Positions 11,993-28,429 of a DNA stretch of 46,654 bases are shown here, one piece after another. This DNA is from an uncultured Pseudomonadota bacterium. Lineage in GTDB: Bacteria > Pseudomonadota > Alphaproteobacteria > UBA9219. The notes under the pieces were generated by a model that saw only the letters and a program-made list of their open reading frames with translations, was not told the DNA's origin and made no database searches. The DNA lies in assembly GCA_903869345.1 (NCBI GenBank), contig CAIPYM010000012.1, positions 1-46,654 on the forward strand. The letters run 5' to 3'. Each line of letters starts with the position of its first letter. Positions within the stretch are counted from its first letter, which is position 1. The translations under genes were made by a program, and so were the position numbers.

Positions 11993-12673
11993 ATGACAAC
12001 CGCCCTCCCCCTCCCCCTTCCCGCCCCCGTCCTGATCCTCCTACGCCACGGCAACACGTTTCGCGCCGGGGAAACGCCCGTCATGGTCGGAGCCAAAACG
12101 GACTTGCCGTTGACCGAGGAAGGCGAAGCGCAAGCCCACGCTTCCGCCGATTTTCTGACCACGGCGCTGGCCAAAGTCCCTCCGGCGGGGATCGTTGCGG
12201 GACCCTTGCTCCGCACGCGTCGTTTTGCCGAAATGCTCAGCGAACGGCTTGGCACGGCATGGCAGGTGGACGAGCGCTTGCGGGAACTGGACTATGGCGC
12301 GTGGGAAGGTCTGTCGTCCGCCCTCATTGTCGAACGGTTTGGGGCCGAGGGCCTTGCGGCCTGGGAAAACCAAGGGATTTTCCCCGAGGACGCCGGGTGG
12401 AATCCCCCTTTTGCGGAGGTTTCATCCCTTGTGCGGAGCTTCCTGGCCGAGCGCCACGCGGCCCTGACAGCGGTGCCCCCTTCTGAAAAACCGCCAACGT
12501 CCATCGCCGTCACCAGCAACGGCCTTCTTCGCGTGATCTACGCCCTCGTAACGGGCAAAGCCCCCGGCACGCAAGCCAAAGTCCGGACCGGGGGGCTTTG
12601 CGCCCTCGCGCCCGAATCCGGCGGGGCCTGGTCCATCGTCGTGTGGAACAGGGCCACCCCCAACCCAAAATAG
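11993..12673 (+). CDS. Histidine phosphatase family protein
   Basis: The 226-residue product has the phosphoglycerate-mutase/phosphatase signature VLILLRHGNT, with the phosphorylated His at residue 19. The second Arg is in GPLLRTRRFAEML, the conserved Glu region is LRELDYGAWEGLS, and a late VTSNGLLRVIY replaces the usual SHG, so the second catalytic His is not visible there (Asn instead). It is cytoplasmic and the substrate cannot be assigned. No clear ribosome site precedes the ATG at 11993; an upstream start would run into repeat-derived sequence. Confidence 0.85.
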   Translation: MTTALPLPLPAPVLILLRHGNTFRAGETPVMVGAKTDLPLTEEGEAQAHASADFLTTALAKVPPAGIVAGPLLRTRRFAEMLSERLGTAWQVDERLRELDYGAWEGLSSALIVERFGAEGLAAWENQGIFPEDAGWNPPFAEVSSLVRSFLAERHAALTAVPPSEKPPTSIAVTSNGLLRVIYALVTGKAPGTQAKVRTGGLCALAPESGGAWSIVVWNRATPNPK

Positions 12674-12823
12674 ACGCAACTCGCGGGAACGGAGGGGTCG
12701 TCTTCTCGTCAGTTCCCCCACAAAGAGCCGCCTCGGTTTCGCCATGTTGTCCGCTTAGGCTTGCCCCCATGTCTCCCCGATGGGGAGCTCAAGTTCCTCT
12801 TCTCGTCTGAAAGGATCATCACC

Positions 12824-13267
12824 ATGCGTACGTTCACCCACGTTGCGGCTCTTGCCGTTCTGTCCGCGTCGCTTGCCTTTGCGGTGGCTACTCCTGTCCG
12901 CGCTGCGGACCCGGCGCAACCTCCCGCGACCGCCACAACCGCCGCACCCCCGGCCTCCGCGACCATGCCCCCCATGGATCCCCAACTGCGGGAGCAGTGT
13001 CTGCAGATTCGCAAGGAATGCCGCGAGCGTCTGCAAACCGCCACGTGTCCTCGCAGGGGACCTGGACATTCACCCGACATGCAAGCTGCCCCCGTTGACC
13101 CCAAGGTGAAAGAAACGTGCCAACAAATTCGCAAAGAGTGCCATGAGCGCGTCGTGACAACCGGGTGCCCTCACCGCACCTGGAACAAGCAGCGGCCCAT
13201 GATGGGCCCGCATGAAGGCATGGGACGCCCGTTCCAGGCCCCCGCCGAGTCCGGTCCCAAGAACTAA
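12824..13267 (+). CDS. Exported protein with a duplicated three-cysteine motif
   Basis: I do not recognise a named family. The 147-residue product has a clear Sec signal peptide with predicted cleavage after VRA at residue 27. A Pro/Ala/Thr linker follows, then two copies of a 29-residue unit 40 residues apart (residues 50-78 and 90-118). Each unit reads P-x-D-P then C-x6-C-x8-C-P, sharing the segment QIRKEC; the cysteines are 59, 66, 75 and 99, 106, 115. The tail is rich in Met and His (RPMMGPHEGMG). The pattern could form disulfides or bind a metal such as copper. GAAAGGATC precedes the ATG. It stands alone, convergent with the hydrolase gene. Confidence 0.85.
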   Translation: MRTFTHVAALAVLSASLAFAVATPVRAADPAQPPATATTAAPPASATMPPMDPQLREQCLQIRKECRERLQTATCPRRGPGHSPDMQAAPVDPKVKETCQQIRKECHERVVTTGCPHRTWNKQRPMMGPHEGMGRPFQAPAESGPKN

Positions 13268-13334
13268 GGTTTGAGGGTCCGATTTGGCGTTAGGCCAAAG
13301 CGCCTTGGCAGGGGTGGTTTCCAGGCCTTGGAAG

Positions 13335-14012
13335 CTACCCCGCCATCGCGAGGGGCTGCTGGGTCACGGGCCGCTGGTGAAGGGCGAGGTCCAGGTAGTC
13401 CTCAATGTAATCCGTCAAAATATCCAGGTGGTCCCCGAAAAAGTGGTTCGCGCCGTCGATCACGCGGTAGTCAATCGCGATTCCGCGCTGATGGGTGAGT
13501 TTGGCGACAAGTTTTGAAACCGAAGGCTCGGGAACGATGTCGTCCACCGCGCCATGAAGAATGAGGCCCGAGGTTGGACAAGGTGCGAGGAAGCTGAAAT
13601 CCAGCATGCTCGCGGGCGGAGCGACGGAAATGAACGATTCAATTTCGGGGCGCCGCATCAAAAGTTGCATCCCGATCCACGCGCCGAACGAGAATCCCGC
13701 GACCCACGCGGCCCGTGCGTTGGGGTTTGTCGCCTGCAGCCAATCCAATGCGGCGGCGGCATCGCTCAGTTCACCTTCGCCCCGGTCGTAACCACCCTGG
13801 CTGCGTCCGACTCCCCGAAAGTTGAATCGCAACGTGGCAAAATCGCGCTCGGCAAACGTGGTGAAGAGGTTGTAAACAACCTTGTTGTTCATCGTCCCAC
13901 CGTGCTGAGGGTGCGGATGCAGAATCAGCGCGACGGGCGCAGTGGGCGACCGCCCAGGGCTGTAGCGCCCTTCCAAACGACCGGCGGGACCCGTGAAAAG
14001 AACTTCTGGCAT
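13335..14012 (-). CDS. Alpha/beta hydrolase (COG2945-like)
   Basis: The 225-residue serine hydrolase contains HPHPQHGGTMNNKVVY near the N-terminus and RFNFRGVGRSQG. The nucleophile Ser is in VAGFSFGAWIG, the Asp in LHGAVDDIVPE, and the His in DGANHFF. The layout matches the small cytoplasmic COG2945 group, whose substrates are mostly unknown. The ATG at 14012 fits the family; AGAGAAAG lies upstream. The same frame continues open to 14123, but that part is unlike the family. Confidence 0.88.
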   Translation of the reverse strand: MPEVLFTGPAGRLEGRYSPGRSPTAPVALILHPHPQHGGTMNNKVVYNLFTTFAERDFATLRFNFRGVGRSQGGYDRGEGELSDAAAALDWLQATNPNARAAWVAGFSFGAWIGMQLLMRRPEIESFISVAPPASMLDFSFLAPCPTSGLILHGAVDDIVPEPSVSKLVAKLTHQRGIAIDYRVIDGANHFFGDHLDILTDYIEDYLDLALHQRPVTQQPLAMAG

Positions 14013-14428
14013 GAAAAACGTCTTTCTCTTGTAAGGTGGGTCGCAACGGCGGACCGCTCCTGCCGATGAGCCCTCTGCCCAACGCGCTTCCCGCACGTTA
14101 GCACAAATGTCCCCCCAAACCAAGTTGAAAACGTTTTCGCAACAAGACAGGCGTTCCGCGTGCCGAGGGCCTGTGTGGGGTGCGACAGGGGTTCATTCCT
14201 TGCCTATCCGGTTTTTCGCCCTTCCCTTGACGGGGGGCGTCCACTCTCCGTTGTAAAAGGTTTTGTAGGTTGGGCTGAGGACTGTGCGGCCGCGGGGTTA
14301 AATGTCTTTATCGGGGAGAACCGTCGATTAAATAGGCCCCCCCTTCATGAAGGTCGGCTCTTGGTCTCCCCCCAAAAAACGCGAAAAGCCCCTTTATCCC
14401 TGAAAAACAACGACAAAAAGGCAAAAGA
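14013..14428. other. Intergenic region without a supported gene
   Basis: This stretch holds the upstream region of the hydrolase gene and the sequence downstream of tRNA-Tyr. An open frame crossing the tRNA on the plus strand (14160-14552) has the GWIRTSERSR stretch produced by reading antisense to tRNA genes, so I reject it. I see no repeat and no convincing terminator. Confidence 0.5.
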
Positions 14429-15979: not shown

Positions 15980-17617
15980 TTAGCGCCTTCCCGTTGGTGC
16001 GACGGTCGGCCAAGGGGTCCCCCACAGGGCGGCAAAGCCTTGCGGTGACCCCCAGAGAGCGGCGGGATTATCTCCCCCCACGTCGGGTGCGAGCCCGAAC
16101 CGCTGGGCGGTCAGGGCTTGCTCGCCAAAGCTGAGGACCAGGTGCCGAGCGTAGTTCTGGCCCCGAAGGGCGCGGTCTTGGCCCTGGGCCTGAGCCGCGC
16201 AGCTACGGTCCAGAAAGGGATCGTCGCGCCGCGCCCCGCTCAGCAAAACCGTGACGGCACGCTGAGGGTAGCGCAGACGAAGGGTGTTGCGCCCCAACCG
16301 CCGTGCGTAGGGCCCAAGGTGATCCAACCCGTAGGGGGCATCATCCACGCCAGGGCAAGCGGCCGTGTCCGCAGGCGCGAACGAGGGCCCGCGCGTGTCG
16401 GGCCGAAGGGGGGTCAAGTACACGTACGACGACGGGTCGGCGACAACGAACCGGACCTTTTGCCCCGCCGATTCCAAAATCGCGGGAGCTTGCCCGACCA
16501 CCGCGTAACGGTGCGCGAGGTCCGCGCCCAAGCCGTGACCGACGATCAGCACCTCGCGCACGTTCGGAAATCGCCGGGTATCGGCCAGGTACATCAAAAG
16601 AAGATCAAGCACCGTGAACGAGCTCACGCTCCCCCGCAGGGAGTCGATGGGCAGGGATTCACCCCCCACCCACCAGCCCCCCGACGGCGGATTCAGCGGC
16701 CAGCGCGCTACGGCCCGCCCGCCCTCGGGCAGGTAGGCGGCCAGCGGAGCCAGATCCACCGCCACGGGGAATTGCGGAGCGAGGACAAAGGTTTGGTCGG
16801 CGGATCCCTTGGCCCGCGCCAGAGTCATGAACAGCGCAAGGCTTGCGGTGGCCTCACGCGTTCGATCAGGCAAAGCGATAATGGCCGTGCGAACGGCGGT
16901 ATGGTTGGCCTCCAGCGGCGTGGTGCTGGCCACGGGCACCAGTTGGGGCTTGGCCTCCTCGCCGTCGGAAAAGACGGGAAAGAACTGGGGGCCGACGGTG
17001 GAAGTCGGCAGAGGGGATTCGTACGGAACACTCGGGACGGTCGCGGCCTCTAGGGTCGGCCGGACGGTTTGGAGGCCCGCGCGGGACGGCACCACCCGCA
17101 CGTTGTTGCCGGAATCCCCCCCTATCATGGGCGCACGGTAGACCGTGTAGGGCTTGTCCCCCTCGGGCTGAGGGGGCGCGTCGTGGCGTGAAACGCGCGC
17201 CATCCCTTCCGGCGTGGGGGTGGACGCGTTCGGAGCGGGAGCCTGCGCGGTTGGCTCACGCTGGGCGGGGGGGGAAGAATCGCCCAGGCCAAAAAGGGAC
17301 GGAAAGGAAAACGACGACGTTTTTCCGGGCTTGTCAGAGGATGCGCCCGTTGCATCAGGGGTCGCGTCGACGGGCTCCTCATCGTTCGGGGGCGCCACGG
17401 GCGGCAACAAGTCCCACAGCGTGTCCCGCACATCGCCCAACGAGACGGTGGGGTCCGGAGCCTTCGGCGTCGTGCTGACGCGGCCAAACGATTTGGCCTC
17501 GGCATAAGAGCCCGCAAAACTCCCGACGACCACAAGGATCGCGCCCACGGCCCCCCAGCGACGCAAAGGCGTGAAGAACAAGCCGACCAAAGGGCGTTGC
17601 AAGAAGAGAGAAACCAT
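15980..17617 (-). CDS. Exported alpha/beta-hydrolase-fold protein, probably catalytically dead
   Basis: The 545-residue product has an N-terminal hydrophobic segment (WGAVGAILVVVGSFAGSYAEA), a low-complexity linker of about 180 residues rich in Pro, Ala and Ser, and a C-terminal alpha/beta-hydrolase domain. That domain resembles exported hydrolases with the series PSSYxYL...RP...CPGxxDxxYGL (here ADPSSYVYLTPLRP and CPGVDDAPYGLDHL). The expected nucleophile elbow GHSxG reads GHGLGAD (residues 360-366), so Ser is Gly. The region where I would expect the catalytic His reads PDVGGDNPAALWG, with Gly. This suggests a pseudoenzyme. The ATG at 17617 has AGGTGG upstream; a GTG at 17629 is possible. 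Confidence 0.75.
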   Translation of the reverse strand: MVSLFLQRPLVGLFFTPLRRWGAVGAILVVVGSFAGSYAEAKSFGRVSTTPKAPDPTVSLGDVRDTLWDLLPPVAPPNDEEPVDATPDATGASSDKPGKTSSFSFPSLFGLGDSSPPAQREPTAQAPAPNASTPTPEGMARVSRHDAPPQPEGDKPYTVYRAPMIGGDSGNNVRVVPSRAGLQTVRPTLEAATVPSVPYESPLPTSTVGPQFFPVFSDGEEAKPQLVPVASTTPLEANHTAVRTAIIALPDRTREATASLALFMTLARAKGSADQTFVLAPQFPVAVDLAPLAAYLPEGGRAVARWPLNPPSGGWWVGGESLPIDSLRGSVSSFTVLDLLLMYLADTRRFPNVREVLIVGHGLGADLAHRYAVVGQAPAILESAGQKVRFVVADPSSYVYLTPLRPDTRGPSFAPADTAACPGVDDAPYGLDHLGPYARRLGRNTLRLRYPQRAVTVLLSGARRDDPFLDRSCAAQAQGQDRALRGQNYARHLVLSFGEQALTAQRFGLAPDVGGDNPAALWGSPQGFAALWGTPWPTVAPTGRR

Positions 17618-17680
17618 CCGACAACCCACCTCAGCGTCAGGGGAAAAGACCGCTCATCACGGTAAGACCCTCCGATGAAA

Positions 17681-17927: not shown

Positions 17928-19228
17928 CACGCGAAAATGTTCAAGCAATTATGTCTTCACATGATCCAACGTCCTCGGTGCTGGAAGGCCATGATTTGAG
18001 CGGCCTTGACTTAACGGGACTCACGTTTGATGGGTGGAATCTGACCAGAACAAAGTTCGACGATTGTCGTTTGATGGGGGTGCATTTTATTGATGCCATA
18101 CTCTACCATGCCGAGTTTCAGGGAGCCCACCTGCAAGGGGCTGATTTGTCCCAGGCCTGGGCACGTAAAGCGTGCTTTAGGGAAGCCAAGCTGAATGGGG
18201 CGGTCCTCCTGGGACTGCAGGCTATGGGAGCGGATTTTTCCCTGGCGGACATGAGCCCGGACCACCGGCAGCAGCCCGTTGGGGCGGCAAGTGCCAACTT
18301 CCAGCTGGCCAACTTTGCGGGAGCCGACCTTACGGACCTTCAAGCTCCAGATGCAAATCTTCAGCGGGCCCAGCTGGTGCCCGACCCCAGAACAGGCCGA
18401 AAAGTTGTTGCGCACAGGGCGAAGCTGATCGGAGCGCAGCTGGCCCGAATCGAGGTGCGCGACGCAGATTTAACGGGTGTACATCTTGATTATTCTACAG
18501 GGCACAACGCGTGTTTTTCCAATGTTACGATGCTAGACAGCTCGGCGCGAAACGCCTCCTGGCTGGGGGCAATATTGATCAAGATTATTGCTCCCCACAG
18601 CGATTGGAGCGGGGCTGAAATGAAGAAGAGCGACATGTTAGAGATCGACCTATCGGGCTCAACGCTTGTGGGTTGCCGATTCGACGAGAGCTCCTGGGGG
18701 AAGGTTTTGTTGTGTTCCGCTGATCTCACCGACGCCCATATGGAAAACATGGGGATCATGGAAGGCGATGCAACAATGGCCGATTTGTCGGGGATACAGG
18801 CCCCCGGCCTTAGGATTCAAGGAACGCCCGACACACCTTTCTTGTTTGATCGGGTGAGATTGTCCGGGGCTAACCTGACAGGCGCAACCTTGACCCGCGT
18901 CGCGTGCATAAGAGCGAACATGTCGTCTATGACAGCGCCAAGAATGAGGATGGAGGGGGGCGTCTTCTTTGAAAGCCGACTCCAGAACTCTGATCTGCGA
19001 AGAGCTGAGATGACGGGAGTCAAACTCTATCGTCCCCATTGGGAGATGTTCACTGTGGCCGAAGCTCTCCAGGGAACCCGGTTGGACGGGGCGATCGGTT
19101 TTCCTCCTTTGCGGCCACCCGTTGGATCTTGCGCCAACGATGCGTTACCAGCGTGGCTCCAGAGACTTATAAGGAGCCGCCATATGACTTCGGGTGTTTA
19201 CCGCAAACTGACCACGCTCCAGCCCTAA
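17924..19228 (+). CDS. Pentapeptide-repeat protein
   Basis: The 434-residue product is built largely of A(D/N)LXX-type pentapeptides, for example GHDLSGLDLTGLTFDGWNL, AHLQGADLSQA and RLSGANLTGATLTRV, in several tracts along its length. Such sequences fold into a right-handed quadrilateral beta-helix. No membrane segment, kinase or effector domain is attached. Pentapeptide proteins vary in role (gyrase protection, scaffolds, effectors), so I assign none. I chose the ATG at 17924 for its ATGA coupling to the leader ORF; ATGs at 17906 and 17915 are alternatives. The gene is lower in GC than its surroundings. Its stop overlaps the convergent gspE stop by four bases. Confidence 0.85.
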   Translation: MTRENVQAIMSSHDPTSSVLEGHDLSGLDLTGLTFDGWNLTRTKFDDCRLMGVHFIDAILYHAEFQGAHLQGADLSQAWARKACFREAKLNGAVLLGLQAMGADFSLADMSPDHRQQPVGAASANFQLANFAGADLTDLQAPDANLQRAQLVPDPRTGRKVVAHRAKLIGAQLARIEVRDADLTGVHLDYSTGHNACFSNVTMLDSSARNASWLGAILIKIIAPHSDWSGAEMKKSDMLEIDLSGSTLVGCRFDESSWGKVLLCSADLTDAHMENMGIMEGDATMADLSGIQAPGLRIQGTPDTPFLFDRVRLSGANLTGATLTRVACIRANMSSMTAPRMRMEGGVFFESRLQNSDLRRAEMTGVKLYRPHWEMFTVAEALQGTRLDGAIGFPPLRPPVGSCANDALPAWLQRLIRSRHMTSGVYRKLTTLQP

Positions 19229-20943
19229 CCCCACCTCCCCCGCTCCACATCCACGACGCGGCGGAGGTCGGCAAGCGCGACAAGGCCGGTGCGGACGCGA
19301 TCAAGACCGTCCTCGGCGAGGCTCCGAAAGCCGTTGCGTTCCGCCGCCGCGCGAAGCGCGACACGCCCGGATTCGGCGGCGATCAGGTCGTCCATCTCGG
19401 GCGTGAGGCGCAAAACCTCGGCCAGCGCCACGCGGCCTTGGGTCCCGGTCCCGTGGCAGCCGGGACAGCCCGGAGCCTCGGCCAGAATCGGGGGAACATT
19501 GGCCTCGGCGGGGTCACGCCCCAACAGCGCGTGCTCCTCCGCCGTGGCAGGGCGCGAATGCGCGCACGCGGGGCAAAGGAGCGGGACCAGCCGTTGCCCC
19601 ACGACGCCCGCGAGGTTCCCGGCGATCATCCGAGGGCTGAGCCCGAGGTCCACCAGGCGCGGAATGGATTCGAACGCATCGCCACAGTGCAGGGTCGCGA
19701 AAACCTGGTGACCCGTCAGCGCGGCGCGGAGCGCCATGCGCGCGGTCTCGGGGTCGCGAATCTCGCCGATCAGCACAACGTCGGGGTCCATGCGCAAGGC
19801 CCCGCGTGCGCCCGCCGCGAACGTCAGGCCTTGGGCTTCGGAAATGGGGGTCTGCCGGATCAGGTCAAGCGGGTATTCGACGGGCTCTTCCAGCGCGACG
19901 ACGTGCAGGTCCTCCCGGCTCAGGCGGTGCAAAAGCGCGTAAAGCGTCGTCGTTTTGCCGCACCCCGTGGGACCCGTGATGAGGGTCAGCCCCTGCGGAC
20001 GCGCGAGCAGCGATTCCAGCGCCGCCCGCGCCGGGGCCTCAAACCCCAACTGTTCCAACGTGCGCAAGGCGTGCCGGGGGTCCAAGAGGCGGAGCGCAAA
20101 CGTCTCGCCCCAGACGGTCGGCATGATCGCCACGCGGCAATCGACCGTCGTGCCCGCGCTCGTGAAGCGAAACCGCCCGTCCTGAATCCGGCGCGTGGCC
20201 GAGGCGTTCATCCCCGCGAGCGCCTTGATCCGCCGCGCCAGCGCGGGCCAGTGCTCCCGGTGGAGAACCCGCAGAGGGCGCAACCGTCCGTCCACCCGGC
20301 ACCGAACGCGGACGCACCCGCTTTCGGGCGCAAGGTGAAGGTCCGAGGCGCGCAGTTCGACGGCCTCGGCGAGCAGCTCATCGCAAAGGCGCGTGATGGG
20401 GTGCGTTGCAGCGGCGGCCGTCGCGGGGGTCTCGGAGAAGCCTTCCAGTTCCCGCAGCGTGGATTCCAGCGCCTCGGCGGGACCGTAGGCGCGACGGATC
20501 GCGCCCTCCAACAAGCCCGGCGCGACAAACCGCGGCGCGAGGACGACATCCCGCGGCAAGAAGCGCCGCAAAACATCCGTGGCCACGACATCAAAGGGGT
20601 CGGTCATGGCGATCCCAAGCTGCCCCTCGCAAAGGGCCAGCGGCAGGGCGCGGCAGCGTTCGGCAACGGCACGCGGCACCCGCGCAAGCCACGCCGGGTC
20701 GGGGACAAGGTCCTGGGGGGCGAGGGCGGGGATCCCGGCTTGGCTCGCCAGGGCCTCGGCCAGAATGTCTTCGGTGATGAACCCCAGACGCGTGAGCGCC
20801 GCGCCCAGACGCTCCTCCGCGCGGCGTTGTTCGTAAAGGGCAATCCGCAAATGATCATCGCTGAGACGAAAGTCGCGCCGCAGAATGGCACCCAAACGCA
20901 AGGGAAGGTCGTCCTCGTCCTCGCGGTCGTTGGACTGCGACAC
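19225..20943 (-). CDS. GspE/PilB-type secretion or pilus assembly ATPase
   Basis: The product is about 572 residues, a hexameric type II secretion/type IV pilus ATPase. An N-terminal GspE_N-like region (LGAILRRDFRLSDDHLRIAL...) is followed by Walker A GPTGCGKTTTLY and the Asp box region ALEEPVEYPLDLI. Walker B is RMDPDVVLIGEIRDPETA and the His box is GHQVFATLHCGD. A four-cysteine zinc motif follows (CPAC...CPGC). It powers pilin polymerisation from the cytoplasm. The GTG at 20943 fits; it lies within a repeat arm that provides AAAAAAGG and overlapping ATG/GTG codons, the ATG being out of frame. An ATG at 20988 would read through the repeat. It is the last gene of the pilus block. Confidence 0.9.
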   Translation of the reverse strand: MSQSNDREDEDDLPLRLGAILRRDFRLSDDHLRIALYEQRRAEERLGAALTRLGFITEDILAEALASQAGIPALAPQDLVPDPAWLARVPRAVAERCRALPLALCEGQLGIAMTDPFDVVATDVLRRFLPRDVVLAPRFVAPGLLEGAIRRAYGPAEALESTLRELEGFSETPATAAAATHPITRLCDELLAEAVELRASDLHLAPESGCVRVRCRVDGRLRPLRVLHREHWPALARRIKALAGMNASATRRIQDGRFRFTSAGTTVDCRVAIMPTVWGETFALRLLDPRHALRTLEQLGFEAPARAALESLLARPQGLTLITGPTGCGKTTTLYALLHRLSREDLHVVALEEPVEYPLDLIRQTPISEAQGLTFAAGARGALRMDPDVVLIGEIRDPETARMALRAALTGHQVFATLHCGDAFESIPRLVDLGLSPRMIAGNLAGVVGQRLVPLLCPACAHSRPATAEEHALLGRDPAEANVPPILAEAPGCPGCHGTGTQGRVALAEVLRLTPEMDDLIAAESGRVALRAAAERNGFRSLAEDGLDRVRTGLVALADLRRVVDVERGRWG

Positions 20944-21130
20944 GGCATAAAAGGGCCTTTTTTCAGCTCTGTTCCCTCTGTCCGTCATCGCAAGGCCCCC
21001 GACGGGGGCCGTGGCGATCCCTCATCGGATCTTTCCGCTAAGCCGAGAGGCCCTGCGCTGGATCGCTTCGCTCCGCTCGCGATGACGGTAGAGAGGGCAG
21101 GACAAAAAGGAGCATCCATGCCGTGCCGGA
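20938..21130. repeat. Full palindromic element with both terminal arms (type copy)
   Basis: The left arm reads CACGGCAT then CCTTTTTT and CCCTCTGTCCGTCATCGC. The right arm, inverted, reads GCGATGACGG, AGAGGG, ACAAAAAGGAGCATCC and ATGCCGTGCCGG. The interior differs from other family A copies and resembles the widespread alphaproteobacterial GATCGCTTCGCTCCGCTCGCGATG repeat. The element fills the gap between the prepilin stop and the gspE start, and its left arm supplies the gspE GTG. Confidence 0.8.
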
Positions 21131-21183
21131 GTTTACCGGTCCGAGGGACGCGTTCCAGAGAGGCGCGAGCGGGCGTCATCGGC

Positions 21184-22041
21184 TCACCACGTGGTTGAAC
21201 ACGCGCCCTGGCCCAAAAAGCTCACAAGCGCGTTGCGATCAAAATAAAGGAGACGATCGTCGAAATTGGCCCCTTGGGGATAATCACAAAAAGACGTGTT
21301 GCCGTCGGCGTTGCAGACTTCGGAAGCCGAAGAGGGTTCAGGAAACGACAGTCTTTCCCCGTTAAGGCCGTTTGACAGCGCCGAGGCCAGAAACGCGCCG
21401 TACCCGTTCGGCCCGTGGCTCACGAACACAACGGCGGCGGAAGGCGGGGGGACGGACTGTTGGGTGCTGTCTGAAAGTTGAACCGTAGGTGCCCCAGTTT
21501 TGCTGAGACCAGACTTGCACAAGCCCTTTGTACTCCCTCCCACCGTCGCACAGATGTGCGCGGTAACATCCGCCGTCGTGCAAGGCGTAAACGGTGGAGC
21601 GACCCCGAACGCGCCGGTCAAAGCCGGGTCCACACGCATCGTGATCCATAGGCCCCAACCGTCACGTGCAGCACTTGCGGGAAGGCCCAACGAGATGAAA
21701 GGGGGGATTCCTTCAGGGACACGGCCCTTGATCCAGTCTTGGTGAGAGGAACACGCGCCGCATGGCAAGCCAAGACCCTGGCTATCGAGAGGGACGCGCC
21801 CAAATTCGGGGCCCGAGACGGCACCCGGCGTCGGGCACGGCACGCAGCCGTTCGCGGTCACGAACGCGGCTGTGGCGCGGGCGAGGCCCTGGAGTGCGGT
21901 CTCGGTCGCGGCCCGTTGCGTGGATGCGCGAAGCGCGAGCATCGCCGGGTAAACCATCCCCGCAACGAGGCCGACGATCACAACCACCATCGCCGCTTCC
22001 ACCAGCGTGAATCCTCGGTGCTGAAGACGGGACGCACGCAT
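21184..22041 (-). CDS. Prepilin-like pseudopilin (type IV pilin N-terminus)
   Basis: The 285-residue product has a 10-residue basic leader ending in Gly, then the class III signal FTLVEAAMVVVIVGLVAGMVY with Glu at position +5, so it should be cleaved by a prepilin peptidase. The C-terminal part is Cys-containing (CVPCPTPGAVSG, CGACSSHQDW, PFTPCTTADVTAHICATVG), probably disulfide-bonded. It is large for a major pilin and may be a minor pilin or adhesin. The ATG at 22041 is 7 bases downstream of the preceding pilin stop. The frame stays open further upstream, but that part antisense-reads other features. Confidence 0.88.
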   Translation of the reverse strand: MRASRLQHRGFTLVEAAMVVVIVGLVAGMVYPAMLALRASTQRAATETALQGLARATAAFVTANGCVPCPTPGAVSGPEFGRVPLDSQGLGLPCGACSSHQDWIKGRVPEGIPPFISLGLPASAARDGWGLWITMRVDPALTGAFGVAPPFTPCTTADVTAHICATVGGSTKGLCKSGLSKTGAPTVQLSDSTQQSVPPPSAAVVFVSHGPNGYGAFLASALSNGLNGERLSFPEPSSASEVCNADGNTSFCDYPQGANFDDRLLYFDRNALVSFLGQGACSTTW

Positions 22042-22048
22042 GGAAGGC

Positions 22049-22759
22049 CTACATCCGGACACAGAGTGTGAAGGTGGGGTTGGCCCCGTAACTTTCTGCG
22101 ACCTTTCCGTCGCCGCTGCCCGAGGCGGTTGCTTGAATCGCGCCGGAATCGCTCTTGCCGTCATCCAAACGTGCATCAATCGCCTGCGCAGCGGTGGAGG
22201 GAACCTTGTTGAGGCACAAGACGGTCGTTGTGAAAACGCCCCCAAAGGCACCGTTTTGGAAGCCGTAGATTCCATTGAACGGGTTGGGCGGTTGAACAGC
22301 CATCGTTGTTGCGCCATCCGTTGTCTGGACTTGATTCTTGACAAGATCAGCGGCGCGGAGATGGGCCCAAACCCAACGACTTTCGCCTTTGCCATCACTG
22401 CCCGTTGTCTGATCCGTGTCAAAGGAGCTACCTGTCCCGACAAACCCATCGCCCATGGAGTCTAAGGTCTGTAATCTGGCGTTGGGAAAACGCCCCTTTG
22501 CCCCCGGATCATCGCCTGGCAACGCGCCGTAATTTTGGGCGTAGGCTTGAAATTGGGCCTGGTAGCCCTGAATCGCGTTGATCGCGTTGGTGATGCGGGC
22601 GTTTTGGATGACCTGTTGGCCCGTGAGCACGCCGCCGATGATCAGCCCCATGATCACCAGGACGATGGAGAGCTCGACGAGCGAAAACCCTCGGCAGGAT
22701 TCCCTCGCCCCCTGCAAGAAGGAGGAGAGGGGAACCGAGGATAGACGGCGGCATGGCAC
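22049..22759 (-). CDS. Type IV pilin-like protein with repeat-derived leader
   Basis: The 236-residue product carries the prepilin motif CRG then FSLVELSIVLVIMGLIIGG, with Glu at +5, followed by a helix (QVIQNARITNAINAIQGYQAQ) and a globular pilin head containing GYxxLPGDDPGA-like NYGALPGDDPGA. I chose the GTG at 22759. It has AAAAAAGG seven bases upstream and gives a 24-residue leader starting VPCRRLSS. Upstream the frame runs through a family A repeat to 22927 without a stop, so a version with a repeat-encoded N-terminus of 56 more residues cannot be excluded. It is cotranscribed with the secretin and the second prepilin. Confidence 0.87.
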   Translation of the reverse strand: MPCRRLSSVPLSSFLQGARESCRGFSLVELSIVLVIMGLIIGGVLTGQQVIQNARITNAINAIQGYQAQFQAYAQNYGALPGDDPGAKGRFPNARLQTLDSMGDGFVGTGSSFDTDQTTGSDGKGESRWVWAHLRAADLVKNQVQTTDGATTMAVQPPNPFNGIYGFQNGAFGGVFTTTVLCLNKVPSTAAQAIDARLDDGKSDSGAIQATASGSGDGKVAESYGANPTFTLCVRM

Positions 22760-22882
22760 AAAATGACCTTTTTTCTTAGCCCCGTCCTCTCCCCCGTCAT
22801 CCCGGCGAAGGCCGGGATCCCGAGCCGTTGAGACGATCGCCGCCTGAATCCCTCGGGACCCCGGCCTTCGCCGGGGTGACGG
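22744..22882. repeat. Palindromic repeat family A with left arm at the pilin start
   Basis: The left arm reads GGCGGCATGGCACAAAATG then ACCTTTTTTC and CCGTCCTCTC. The core holds CCCGGCGAAGGCCGGGATCC and CCCCGGCCTTCGCCGGGGTG. Read on the minus strand, the arm supplies the ribosome site, GTG start and first residues (VPCRRL) of the pilin. The core itself stays open in the pilin frame. Confidence 0.85.
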
Positions 22883-22943
22883 CTCTTTTGTCGGCCTCAG
22901 TCCCTGCACCCCATCGTTCATTCTCATCGCGTCCTCCTGAAAA

Positions 22944-24770
22944 CTAACGGTTCGACGGCGTCCACGACAACGGGCGCGGGTCGCGGTTGTAGCGTCGGTA
23001 CAGGTCCTTGTCCGCTCGGTCCGGCGTCGCGTCGTCCATGATGGTGGCCCGGAGCAGGATCACAAGCTCGGTCGTCTGCCCCTTGTTGTCACGTGACTTG
23101 GCAAGGTTCCCAAGGGCCGGAAACGTGTCAAACGGCGGCACCCCTTTTTCGGTGTTGATTGAACTGTCTTGCATCAGCCCGCCCATGACGGCGACCTCGC
23201 CCGAGTGCAGGCGCAGGACCGAATCCATCTCTCGTACGGCCAGAACGGGCACGGTGGAGGAGATGGGCTTGGTGACGTTCGCTTGCGCCGCGTTGAGGCC
23301 GATGGAGGGGTCCTCGGCGTACGCGACAATGCGCGAAATCGTGGGACGCAGCGTGAGGGCAATATCGTTGTCCTCGGTGTTGATCGCGGGTTGCACCGTC
23401 ATGACGAGTCCGACGGGCACCGTGCGCGGCGAGCTGGAGAACACGGGCGTCCCCGAAATGGGGACACCGCCCGCCGTGACGGTCGTTGGAAATTGCGCGG
23501 AGGTCAGAAAATAGACCTCGTTTCGTGCAACCTTGAGAACGGCGGTTTGGTTATTCAGCACCGTCAGGCGCGGAGACGACAGAATGCGCGTCGTGCCGAA
23601 CGAGCGCACAAGATTCAGAATGCCGTTGAAATCCGACTTGCCCACCGAGGCCGTAAACATGCCATCGGCGGCCGTTGTCGCGGTACTGAAGGGTGCGCCC
23701 GCCCCGACGGTTCCGAATCGCGCCGCCGTGTTCAGGCTGCCGTTAAACAGCGTGCGCCAGTTGATGCCGCTTTCGAAGCCTTCATCCAGCTGCACTTCCA
23801 CAATGCGCGCCTCAATCAACACCTGGGCCGAGGACCGCCGCGCCAGGTCTTTTAGGTAAGCCCGCACAGCCGCGTGTTGCCGGGAGGTCCCCAAAACGGT
23901 GACGAGCCCCGCTTGCCGATCCACGCTGAGGCGCGGGGCGGCGGAGGGACCTGCGTTGGCGGCCGTGGAAAGGGAGGCGGTTCCGGCAAGAACCTGGGTC
24001 AGGGAGTTTTCCATCTCGGCCCAGAAGTCCGCTTGGGTCGTGCCGACAACTTTGGATTGCGAGGTGTTGTCGGTGCGCCCACTGCCGCTCGCGCCGCCGC
24101 TGGATCCCGCGCCGCCCACGTCGGATTCAAACACGTTGGTGGAAATGGAAATCTCGTTCGACGCGCGGCGCGTCAGGTTCAGGTAATCCACGGGGTACGT
24201 CTGCGGATAAGGATCATCCGCCTCAATGCGCAAGAATCGCCCCTCAAACCGCGCACGAAGGCCTGCTGCCGCGCAAAGACGCTCCACGACCTCGCCCAGC
24301 GGCTCATGGTGGGCGCTGAAGACCACATGCCCCTGCACCCGCGTGTCCATCTCAAGGTTGAATCCGCCTGCCCGCGCAAGGTCCAGGAAAATGTTGCGGA
24401 GCGGCGCGTCCTCGGTCACCGTCACGGACACGCGCTTGAACGCCCCTTTAGGCCCGAGCTGTGCGGACGCACCCCCGGCCCTCACGAGGGGTTCCGGCGT
24501 GGGCGGGGACACCGCGACCGGCAGGGCGGGGATCGGCGGCTCTTGGCCCTCGGCCCGAGCCTTGCTCGTCTTCTCCGCCCCCAGCCGTTCAGGGCCCCGT
24601 TCGTGCAAGCCTTGGTAATCCTTGCGGGTGAGCGACCCCGTCGGGTCAATCGCGTTCGACGGAAAGAGCCGCCCACACCCGGCCAGGACCATCAGGACCA
24701 TCAACACGCTCAACCGAAAACCTCCGCAGAGCCCCTTGCTGGGCTGCGGCCCTCGAGTCTTGGGAGGCAT
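22944..24770 (-). CDS. Secretin of MshL/GspD type (outer-membrane pore)
   Basis: The product is about 608 residues and begins with a lipoprotein signal (LMVLMVLAGC). An N-domain at about residues 120-205 (VSVTVTEDAPLRNIFLDLARAGG...) is of the secretin/TonB short N-terminal type. The C-terminal secretin domain runs from QVLIEARIVEVQLDEGF to VPVLAVREMDSVLRLHSGEVAVMGGL and FPALGNLAKSRDN. It closest resembles MshL of MSHA-type pili and should form the outer-membrane channel. The ATG at 24770 has AAGG five bases before it; TTG 24788 and GTG 24782 are alternatives. It lies first in the pilus block, about 80 bases after cobT. Confidence 0.9.
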   Translation of the reverse strand: MPPKTRGPQPSKGLCGGFRLSVLMVLMVLAGCGRLFPSNAIDPTGSLTRKDYQGLHERGPERLGAEKTSKARAEGQEPPIPALPVAVSPPTPEPLVRAGGASAQLGPKGAFKRVSVTVTEDAPLRNIFLDLARAGGFNLEMDTRVQGHVVFSAHHEPLGEVVERLCAAAGLRARFEGRFLRIEADDPYPQTYPVDYLNLTRRASNEISISTNVFESDVGGAGSSGGASGSGRTDNTSQSKVVGTTQADFWAEMENSLTQVLAGTASLSTAANAGPSAAPRLSVDRQAGLVTVLGTSRQHAAVRAYLKDLARRSSAQVLIEARIVEVQLDEGFESGINWRTLFNGSLNTAARFGTVGAGAPFSTATTAADGMFTASVGKSDFNGILNLVRSFGTTRILSSPRLTVLNNQTAVLKVARNEVYFLTSAQFPTTVTAGGVPISGTPVFSSSPRTVPVGLVMTVQPAINTEDNDIALTLRPTISRIVAYAEDPSIGLNAAQANVTKPISSTVPVLAVREMDSVLRLHSGEVAVMGGLMQDSSINTEKGVPPFDTFPALGNLAKSRDNKGQTTELVILLRATIMDDATPDRADKDLYRRYNRDPRPLSWTPSNR

Positions 24771-24866
24771 CCTACCCTTCACGTGCAAAAACCCTCCGGG
24801 TTTGCAAGGGTATGCGCAAATCGCATACCAGCGTAGGCGTGAACCTGGTTTTTTTCCTACGAAAAG

Positions 24867-26780
24867 TCAAGGGTTCCTTCTTGCGAAACGGTCTTGCGCG
24901 GGATCAAACAAGGCCGCGAGTTGAGCGATCATCGCGCTCCCGAGGCTCTCGGGATCCGTCAGCGTCACGGCACGGCGATAGAACCGCGTGACATCGTGCC
25001 CAATCCCGAGGGCAACAAGCTCCACCGACGAGGTGTCCTCGATCCACGCGATCACGGCGCGAAGGTGGTCTTCCAGAAACGCGCCGGGATTGACGGCCAG
25101 CGTCGAATCGTCCACGGGCGCACCGTCCGATATCACCATCAGGATCCGCCGCTGTTCGGGCCGCGCCACGAGCCGCCCGTGGGCCCAGAGCAGCGCCTCC
25201 CCGTCAATGTTCTCTTTCAACAGCCCCTCGCGGAGCAGGAGGCCCAGGTTACGCCGCGCACGCCGCCAGGGGGTGTCGGCGGTTTTGTAGAGAATATGGC
25301 GCGTCTCGTTCAGGCGACCCGGCGAGGCGGGGCGGCCCGCTTGCAGCCATTCTTCGCGGGCACGGCCCCCTTTCCAGGATCGCGTTGTAAAGCCCAGAAT
25401 CTCGGTCTTGACGCCGCAGCGTTCCAGCGTCCGGGCCAGAATATCGGCGCTGAGGGCTGTCAGGAGGATCGGGCGGCCGCGCATAGAGCCCGAGTTATCA
25501 AGCAGCAACGTCACAACCGTGTCCCGAAACGGCGATTCACGCTCCACCTTGAACGCCAGCGGGTCCTCGGGCGAGGTGATGACCCGCGTCAGACGCCCCG
25601 TGTCCAGAATCCCTTCCTCTTGGTCGTCGTCCCACCCGCGCGTTTGTTGGGCCATCAGTTGACGTTGCAGGCGGTTGGCTAGACGCGCCACCACGCCGTG
25701 CATCCCCCGCGCGCGCTGGTCCAAAAGCTCGCGTAGTCGGGCGAGATCGTCCCCCGCGCACAAATCCTCGGCCCGCGCGATCTCGTCAAACGCTGTCGTG
25801 AAGGGTTTGTAGAGGGCCAACCGTTGACCGGCAGGCGAGGTGTTCGCGCCGCGTCCCGCACGGGCGCGTTGCCCCAGACGCGCCTTGCCGTCTTCGTCGT
25901 CGGGAGATTGGCCGTCGCCCTGCGAGATGCCGGGTTCTTCGCCCGGTGTCGCGGCACTGTCCTCCCCCCCGGTCGGCGTGTCCTCCGCGCTGGCCCCTTC
26001 GGTTGCAGGAAGGGGCGCTTGGGATTCGGGCGCGTCCGAAGGGGGCGGCGGCGGTTCGGGCGGTTGATCGGGCGTTGCGGCAGGCGGGGGCGTGCCGGGG
26101 GTTGCGCCCGGCTCCAGACCCGCGATTAGGCGAGCAAGCCGTCGGGCCTCCACCGTGAAGGCGGCCTGGTCGCCCAAAACCCGACGCAAACGGTCAAACG
26201 CCTCGGCGTCGCGCTCCAGGATCATCGCGTTCCACGGCGCGAGGTCCCGTGCCAAGGACGGCAAGGAGGGGGAACGGTCCGCGAAAGCGTTGTACGCCAA
26301 CAGATGCGCCAACGTCGCCAGGGGCGGATCGCTTTCACGCCCCGCGCCGAGGGTCAAACCGCCGGTCGCGTTCAAGGCGGCACTGTGCACTTGAAAGCGC
26401 GATTCCAGCCACGCGCCCACGTTGCGGGCGGTGCCCCGAAAGTGCCTCGCCCCGAGCGCTTCGCACCGCGCGTCCTCCAGGGCCGCGACAAGCGCACGTT
26501 CGTTCGACCCTGCGGTTGCAGGAGCCGCGCGGCGTGCAAGCCGCCCATCATGGTAGCGCAGGCGCAAGGCGGCCGCGTCCGCCGCCCCCCGGACCGAGTC
26601 CTGCGCGGCCAGCGTTTCTGTGGCAACCGGGCGCGGGACCAGGACTCGTTTTTCTGTCGGAGGGGTGCGGATGAGGTCGGTAAACGCGACCTCCACGTCC
26701 CCGCGTTCACCGAGCGCCTTCAGCGTCAGCGTCAGGGCCCTTTCATGAATCTCGGGTGTCTCCTCGGAGGGGGACTTCAC
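24867..26780 (-). CDS. cobT: CobT-like cobaltochelatase subunit
   Basis: The 637-residue product matches CobT in length and layout. The N-terminal helical domain includes [18 protein letters not shown]. An acidic, proline-rich linker covers about residues 224-300. The C-terminal von Willebrand A domain has an intact MIDAS motif LLLDNSGSM (Asp428, Ser430, Ser432). CobT pairs with the AAA+ protein CobS and CobN to insert cobalt into hydrogenobyrinate diamide in aerobic B12 synthesis. No other B12 gene is in view, and CobT homologues also occur in species without the pathway, so the role is uncertain. The GTG start is 3 bases after the upstream gene's stop. Confidence 0.9.
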
Positions 26781-27652: not shown

Positions 27653-28429
27653 CTACCACGGTTGATAACTGTAGAGGAGTTGCTGATGCTCGGGGTCCAG
27701 GTAAATGTTGAGTGATTCCAGCCGCGTGTTGATGCGAACCCGTCCCTCGTCCGGATCCTGGTGCAGGTACCCCGGATCGTCCGAAAAGAGCTTTTTCACA
27801 TGTTTAAACGGCGAGACGTAGGTTGCTCGCAAGGTGAATCGCGCGGAGACGATGCGGTCTTGGTTCTTGCGCGTGATCAACGTGTCCAACAGAGATTTGC
27901 CTTGGCTTGCGTCCATGGGGATTCCGGCCAAGTAAATAGGTTGGTCCAGAAGCATGCGGTAGGATTTCGGCAAAATCGAGGGGCGTTTGTTGTTGCACGA
28001 GGCCGTATCGGTCGAATCAAAGGAAAAGGCGTTGACGTTGCGTAGCTCGGTTTTGGAGGTGAAGCGAAAGAGGTGGTTTTCAAAATCGTACCGGCCCAGT
28101 TGAAGCTCGGTGTCGTACGTCAGCGTTGTGGGGTATGTCACAACATGACGGCGAATGGTCTCGCGGATGCCTTCGCGGATTTTGCGCCACGTAAACTCGT
28201 CCTTGTAAAATCTCACAAAAAGCTTGCATTCCGCCATAAGAGCGTAGTCATCCAGAATGTCATCATCGTAAATATCGAGCGACCCAAAGCGGATCAACGT
28301 TTGCGTGAGCGTCAGGTAGGTGGCCGTGGTGGAGGGTTTCCCCTCCTCGGCTGGCGCAGCGGGGGCGTTCACAAGCACAAGGGCCAGAAAAGCGAGCCCC
28401 ACGCTTTGAAAGATTCGGCGTTTTTCCAT
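27653..28429 (-). CDS. Exported hypothetical protein, 258 residues
   Basis: A Sec signal peptide (VGLAFLALVLVNAPAAPA) is followed by a soluble domain with YLTLTQTLIRFGSLDIYDDD, YALMAECKLFVRFYKDEFTW and a C-terminal part rich in beta-type sequence. It may belong to the DUF4852 group, which I recall only loosely, so I give no function. GAGGGAGCGGTC precedes the ATG. It follows gpmI after 24 bases on the same strand. Two cysteines (AECKLF, ASCNNK) could pair. Confidence 0.7.
   Translation of the reverse strand: MEKRRIFQSVGLAFLALVLVNAPAAPAEEGKPSTTATYLTLTQTLIRFGSLDIYDDDILDDYALMAECKLFVRFYKDEFTWRKIREGIRETIRRHVVTYPTTLTYDTELQLGRYDFENHLFRFTSKTELRNVNAFSFDSTDTASCNNKRPSILPKSYRMLLDQPIYLAGIPMDASQGKSLLDTLITRKNQDRIVSARFTLRATYVSPFKHVKKLFSDDPGYLHQDPDEGRVRINTRLESLNIYLDPEHQQLLYSYQPW

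Follow-up and report, generated by a model that had tools for sequence, protein, structure and literature searches.

Small exported disulfide-rich orphan proteins carry a signal peptide, consist of few residues, are rich in cysteine and have a narrow distribution. The CHCH or twin CX9C proteins of mitochondria are two-helix hairpins with two cysteines per helix, which mature in an oxidising compartment; the outer cysteines pair with each other and so do the inner ones, as in CHCHD1 with its disulfides Cys45-76 and Cys55-66, two pairs with a constant sum (PMC12114033). A monomer of the copper storage proteins (Csp) can bind as many as 13 to 20 Cu(I). Their cysteines lie inside a four-helix bundle whose end carries Met/His, and some of these proteins are periplasmic (PMC7558416). 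Proteins of the ZraP/Spy/CpxP/CnrX group are exported and helical.

Here, we describe P0001, a six-cysteine protein encoded in a 46,654-nucleotide stretch of DNA (the window) from an alphaproteobacterium that is probably of a soil type; the source genome, 99.3% complete, comprises 76 contigs totalling 1.74 Mb. P0001 is an orphan exported cysteine-hairpin candidate, common in kind (putative signal peptide, few residues, high cysteine content, narrow distribution) and unusual in spacing: it differs from other small exported orphans in an internal 40-residue repeat with a fixed C-x6-C-x8-C-P spacing.

Sequence features and internal repeat of P0001

The coordinates, strand and frame given by the initial annotation were correct; the start ATG is at 12824 and the stop codon at 13265-13267. 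Its description of the protein as secreted is supported by the N-terminus, which on inspection by eye shows a positive start (MRTFTH), a hydrophobic run and a VRA-A site, and resembles a Sec signal. Of the 120 residues of the mature protein, 6 are Cys, 6 are Met and 4 are His; no CxxC motif was seen when the sequence was read by eye. The G+C content of the window is 62%, and a search for a sigma-70-type promoter from 12600 to 13450 found none.

Features of the P0001 gene and its surroundings, in window positions
Feature	Position	Strand	Basis
Histidine phosphatase superfamily (PF00300), upstream, ends 150 nt before the P0001 gene	11954..12673	+	Pfam
Shine-Dalgarno-like GAAAGGA, 8 nt upstream of the ATG	12809..12815	+	sequence
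CDS of P0001, six-cysteine candidate exported protein, 147 aa	12824..13267	+	ORF; synonymous differences between repeats
Putative signal peptide, aa 1-27, probable cut VRA/AD (by eye)	12824..12904	+	sequence
Ala/Pro/Thr-rich linker, aa 28-49, low-confidence	12905..12970	+	sequence and AlphaFold2
Unit 1, aa 51-79; predicted helix 53-72; C59, C66, C75	12974..13060	+	repeat and AlphaFold2
Inter-unit linker, aa 80-90	13061..13093	+	sequence and AlphaFold2
Unit 2, aa 91-119; predicted helix 93-113; C99, C106, C115	13094..13180	+	repeat and AlphaFold2
C-terminal tail, aa 120-147, with 3 Met and 1 His; pLDDT low over most of it	13181..13264	+	AlphaFold2 and sequence
Alpha/beta hydrolase, downstream, convergent	13335..14123	-	Pfam
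549-aa ORF with export-like start, unmatched in Pfam at E values up to 0.001	15980..17629	-	
Pentapeptide-repeat protein, 476 aa	17798..19228	+	
Pilus/type II-like cluster: T2SSE ATPase with MshEN domain, N_methyl pilin-like ORFs, secretin	19225..24788	-	
CobT, adjoining the pilus/type II-like cluster	24867..26780		
DUF4852 protein	27653..28429	-	

The two 29-residue copies, 40 residues apart, noticed in the initial annotation were borne out: the units align without gaps at an offset of 40 with 16 of 29 residues identical, and the best 29-residue self-match of mature P0001 scored 102, a value reached by 0 of 2000 shuffles (mean 18.7, sd 6.3, maximum 49). The shared P-x-D-P, QIRKEC and C-x6-C-x8-C-P, named in the same annotation, were found in both units (C59/C66/C75 and C99/C106/C115). 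The nucleotide identity of the two copies is 57%. Ten of the 16 shared residues are encoded by different codons, and the differences fall 11, 8 and 18 times at codon positions 1, 2 and 3, giving a pS of 0.89 and a pN of 0.29 (Nei-Gojobori scheme); the two other forward frames of the repeat have only 7 of 28 residues in common. Because the codons of shared residues differ so widely, with pN far below pS, P0001 is a real gene with a duplication kept under protein-level selection, and the duplication is old since the synonymous sites are saturated. Nothing else argues as strongly for the ORF being a gene as this combination of changed codons and kept protein sequence.

Predicted structure

When modelled with AlphaFold2 from the single sequence, helices 53-72 and 93-113 were the most confident part of the protein (pLDDT block means of 87 and 94 for residues 51-70, and of 89 and 94 for residues 91-110), and the same helices were obtained with the core alone. 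Both are single-sequence models, with a pTM of 0.43 (full) and 0.55 (core), so that it is uncertain how the two helices pack against each other. A coiled-coil wheel places C59, C66 and A73 of unit 1 at about 0 degrees (0, 359) and L55 and I62 at 308. V95, C99, I102, C106 and T113 repeat this pattern in unit 2; both cysteines and the isoleucine of each helix thus share one face. The hydrophobic moments are marginally above those of shuffled sequences, of which 4.4% and 6.0% reach the observed values. The pairs C59/C106 and C66/C99 fit an antiparallel register of 165, and the helix midpoints sum to 165.5; the constant sum of the cysteine pairs is automatic because the spacing is equal in both units, so that only the agreement with the midpoints is informative. 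Conservation of the cysteines is documented within the two copies of P0001 itself, no homologues having been found for comparison. Foldseek gave no match at E values up to 0.001 for either the full or the core model, and CHCH structures were absent from the VIA lists for these models, an absence that decides nothing.

P0001 and known protein families

The initial annotation recognised no known family, and this was upheld in Pfam, NCBIfam, PHROGs, PADLOC and a PDB profile search. Five Pfam families were listed at E values up to 10, all under the cut-off (best Folate_rec, 0.014), in a search in which the HMMER filters drop most weak matches; NCBIfam yielded one family (E 4), PHROGs one match (0.18) and PADLOC none. 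The PDB search with the unit profile gave no match. Whole P0001 in phmmer retrieved designed chlorophyll-dimer helices (E 4e-4, several sub-threshold pieces), which reflects composition and not homology.

A profile search with the 29-residue unit, proposed in the initial annotation as a check, recovered only the protein's own copies credibly (E 1e-20 and 5e-20) and led to no family. Beyond self, no credible match turned up among 33 genomes of the order (best E 0.05), 385 genomes of the class (6e-5 and 0.002) or 398 genomes of the phylum (0.005), the latter two sets being samples of larger groups. The loci behind these four values were translated and judged to be chance matches: a 48-residue frame beside longer ORFs, Arg-rich or His/Ala/Gln-rich low-complexity frames, and a 62-residue fragment frame. 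In the set of 24 family genomes the window's genome is the sole member of its genus, so that the search covers relatives from other genera.

Nineteen of 59 relatives' genomes (own included) had a match at E values up to 1, the best non-self value being 0.018, and among frames of 60-400 residues in 69 loci only the window's own contained two C-x6-C-x8-C units. The C-x6-C-x8-C-P pattern occurs in the DNA of the own genome at 14 places, two of which are the units, against 15 for the reversed control. The six-cysteine spacing was matched in 35 of the 385 class genomes, one of them the window's own. Ten loci, each from a different one of the 34 other genomes, were translated and rejected, 6 having internal stops and 4 being open but low-complexity or Arg/Ala-rich; the remaining 24 genomes were judged from the start of the match only. 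Close-relative pattern scans confirmed none of 588 stretches in genome contigs and no relative in 39 stretches of viral contigs, where the unit profile gave 7 stretches and likewise no relative. No relatives were found on plasmids, and the best phage matches, two records at E 0.7, lay within a DNA polymerase gene. The literature search returned no paper describing an exported protein of bacteria with a twin CX6C pattern.

Genomic neighbourhood

Downstream of P0001, the alpha/beta hydrolase gene is followed by tRNA-Tyr and then HrcA. Both flanking genes are conserved, the hydrolase in 20 of 24 family genomes (own included) and the histidine phosphatase also in 20 of 24; when 43 flanking loci were scanned for exported Cys-rich ORFs, the P0001 gene was present only in the window's own genome. 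Cysteine desulfurase, Rrf2-type and DnaJ-type genes (assigned by eye) lie near the hydrolase elsewhere, with clusters in 9, 7 and 11 of 21 loci; the 20 other loci are 19 from family genomes plus L083, apparently the same contig as one of them. None of these three gene types was found near the hydrolase at the window's locus. For this reason the P0001 gene sits in a rearranged spot, and the adjoining genes suggest no function. In one relative (G002, locus L046, 1024-1398, minus strand) a small exported ORF containing His, Tyr and Cys lies beside the same hydrolase; it has no C-x6-C-x8-C units.

Discussion

We tentatively propose, at a little under an even chance, that P0001 is a small exported antiparallel helical hairpin, made from a tandem-duplicated amphipathic helix and stapled by disulfides, and not an enzyme. 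The hairpin core would have arisen by tandem duplication of one amphipathic cysteine-bearing helix. The protein would be exported via Sec and then oxidised in the periplasm by a DsbA/DsbB-type system, and oxidative folding machinery is encoded in the own genome: DsbB (103.5 bits, over the cut-off) and two Thioredoxin_4/DsbA-like matches. Disulfides C59-C106 and C66-C99 would staple the hairpin; the apolar seam L/V-C-I-C-L/V is probably too small to hold it alone, so the disulfides would be needed. C75 and C115 may form intermolecular disulfides, with a second copy or a partner, or may be free; bridging is suggested because they lie just past the helices, at opposite ends of the predicted hairpin and beyond mutual reach in a monomer. 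Its likely task would be to serve, in the envelope or the secreted fraction, as a stable module for binding or structure.

In build, such a protein would be nearest to the mitochondrial twin-CX9C hairpins. The features in common are the two-helix hairpin with two cysteines each and outer-outer and inner-inner pairing (predicted for P0001), and maturation in an oxidising compartment (presumed for P0001) (PMC12114033). However, P0001 has CX6C twice and not CX9C, 32 residues between the CX6C pairs instead of about 10, and a third cysteine per unit and a putative Sec-type signal in addition; no CHCH-type family is among the five Pfam families listed at E values up to 10. P0001 is not filed as a CHCH or twin CX9C protein, because the spacing and profile tests fail, and any likeness would be one of build, not of descent. 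That it is an independently evolved bacterial counterpart, a "twin CX6C" hairpin oxidised in the periplasm in which the third cysteine of each unit links hairpins into dimers or chains, is conceivable but rather unlikely.

A metal or redox role, suggested in the initial annotation, was not borne out: the tail is hardly enriched and no metal-resistance gene is nearby. The "Met/His-rich tail" was overstated, as residues 118-147 hold 3 Met and 1 His per 30 residues, a count equalled by 380 of 7938 (4.8%) 30-residue windows from 22 other ORFs of the window. It is unlikely that P0001 is a periplasmic Cu(I)- or Zn(II)-binding protein in which reduced cysteines within a helical bundle are assisted by Met/His, after the manner of Csp or of zinc-binding helical hairpins. 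The 6 Cys, 6 Met and 4 His of the mature protein would suit such a site, as would the position of the cysteines on the inner face of the predicted helices, for which Csp is a precedent (PMC7558416). With only 6 Cys, though, P0001 differs from Csp in capacity, and the Csp family is absent from the Pfam list (E up to 10), as is any metal family. With the full model, ZraP (3lay) heads the VIA list (Z 5.8, 3.9 A, 66 aligned), but for helical bundles a Z under about 13 may mean a common arrangement only, and with the core model ZraP falls to rank 5 (Z 4.5). CsoR is among the Foldseek matches at E 3.9. The ZraP/Spy/CpxP/CnrX proteins further differ from P0001, which has no Pfam match and carries cysteines in its predicted seam. 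The LTxxQ motif that marks ZraP/Spy/CpxP is absent from P0001 by reading, and its predicted helices are shorter than those of ZraP. No metal-resistance gene was found in the 20 window ORFs scanned, and the periplasm would be oxidising if the Dsb proteins act there. A metal or redox role is less compelling because structural disulfides would explain the arrangement of the cysteines no less well, in a genome that encodes DsbB and DsbA-like proteins.

It is quite improbable that P0001 is a secreted interaction protein, directed against competitors or towards a host, which lacks relatives because it evolves fast. Such a protein could well be a small, cysteine-bearing orphan predicted to be exported, for which the 32 other genomes of the order yield chance-level pieces only; yet no immunity or secretion gene adjoins it, the pilus/type II-like cluster being about 6 kb or more away. 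Equally improbable is a thiol redox partner whose reactive cysteine(s) pass on disulfides or respond to oxidants: in the monomer C75 and C115 would lack a bonding partner, and each is directly followed by Pro, but P0001 has no CxxC motif and no redox family in Pfam or NCBIfam. Finally, a chance ORF in a GC-rich genome, in line with the missing relatives and the undetected promoter, is nearly refuted by two diverged copies that keep the protein while changing its codons, and by the Shine-Dalgarno-like sequence and signal-peptide-like start.

As P0001 is an orphan with only two internal copies, the finding carries small practical weight until relatives or a function are found. If the proposal of a disulfide-stapled hairpin is true, P0001 would illustrate how simply a new exported fold can arise, namely by duplication of a short cysteine-bearing helix to give a stapled hairpin, and it would represent, in an alphaproteobacterium, a convergent likeness to a fold of the mitochondrial intermembrane space.
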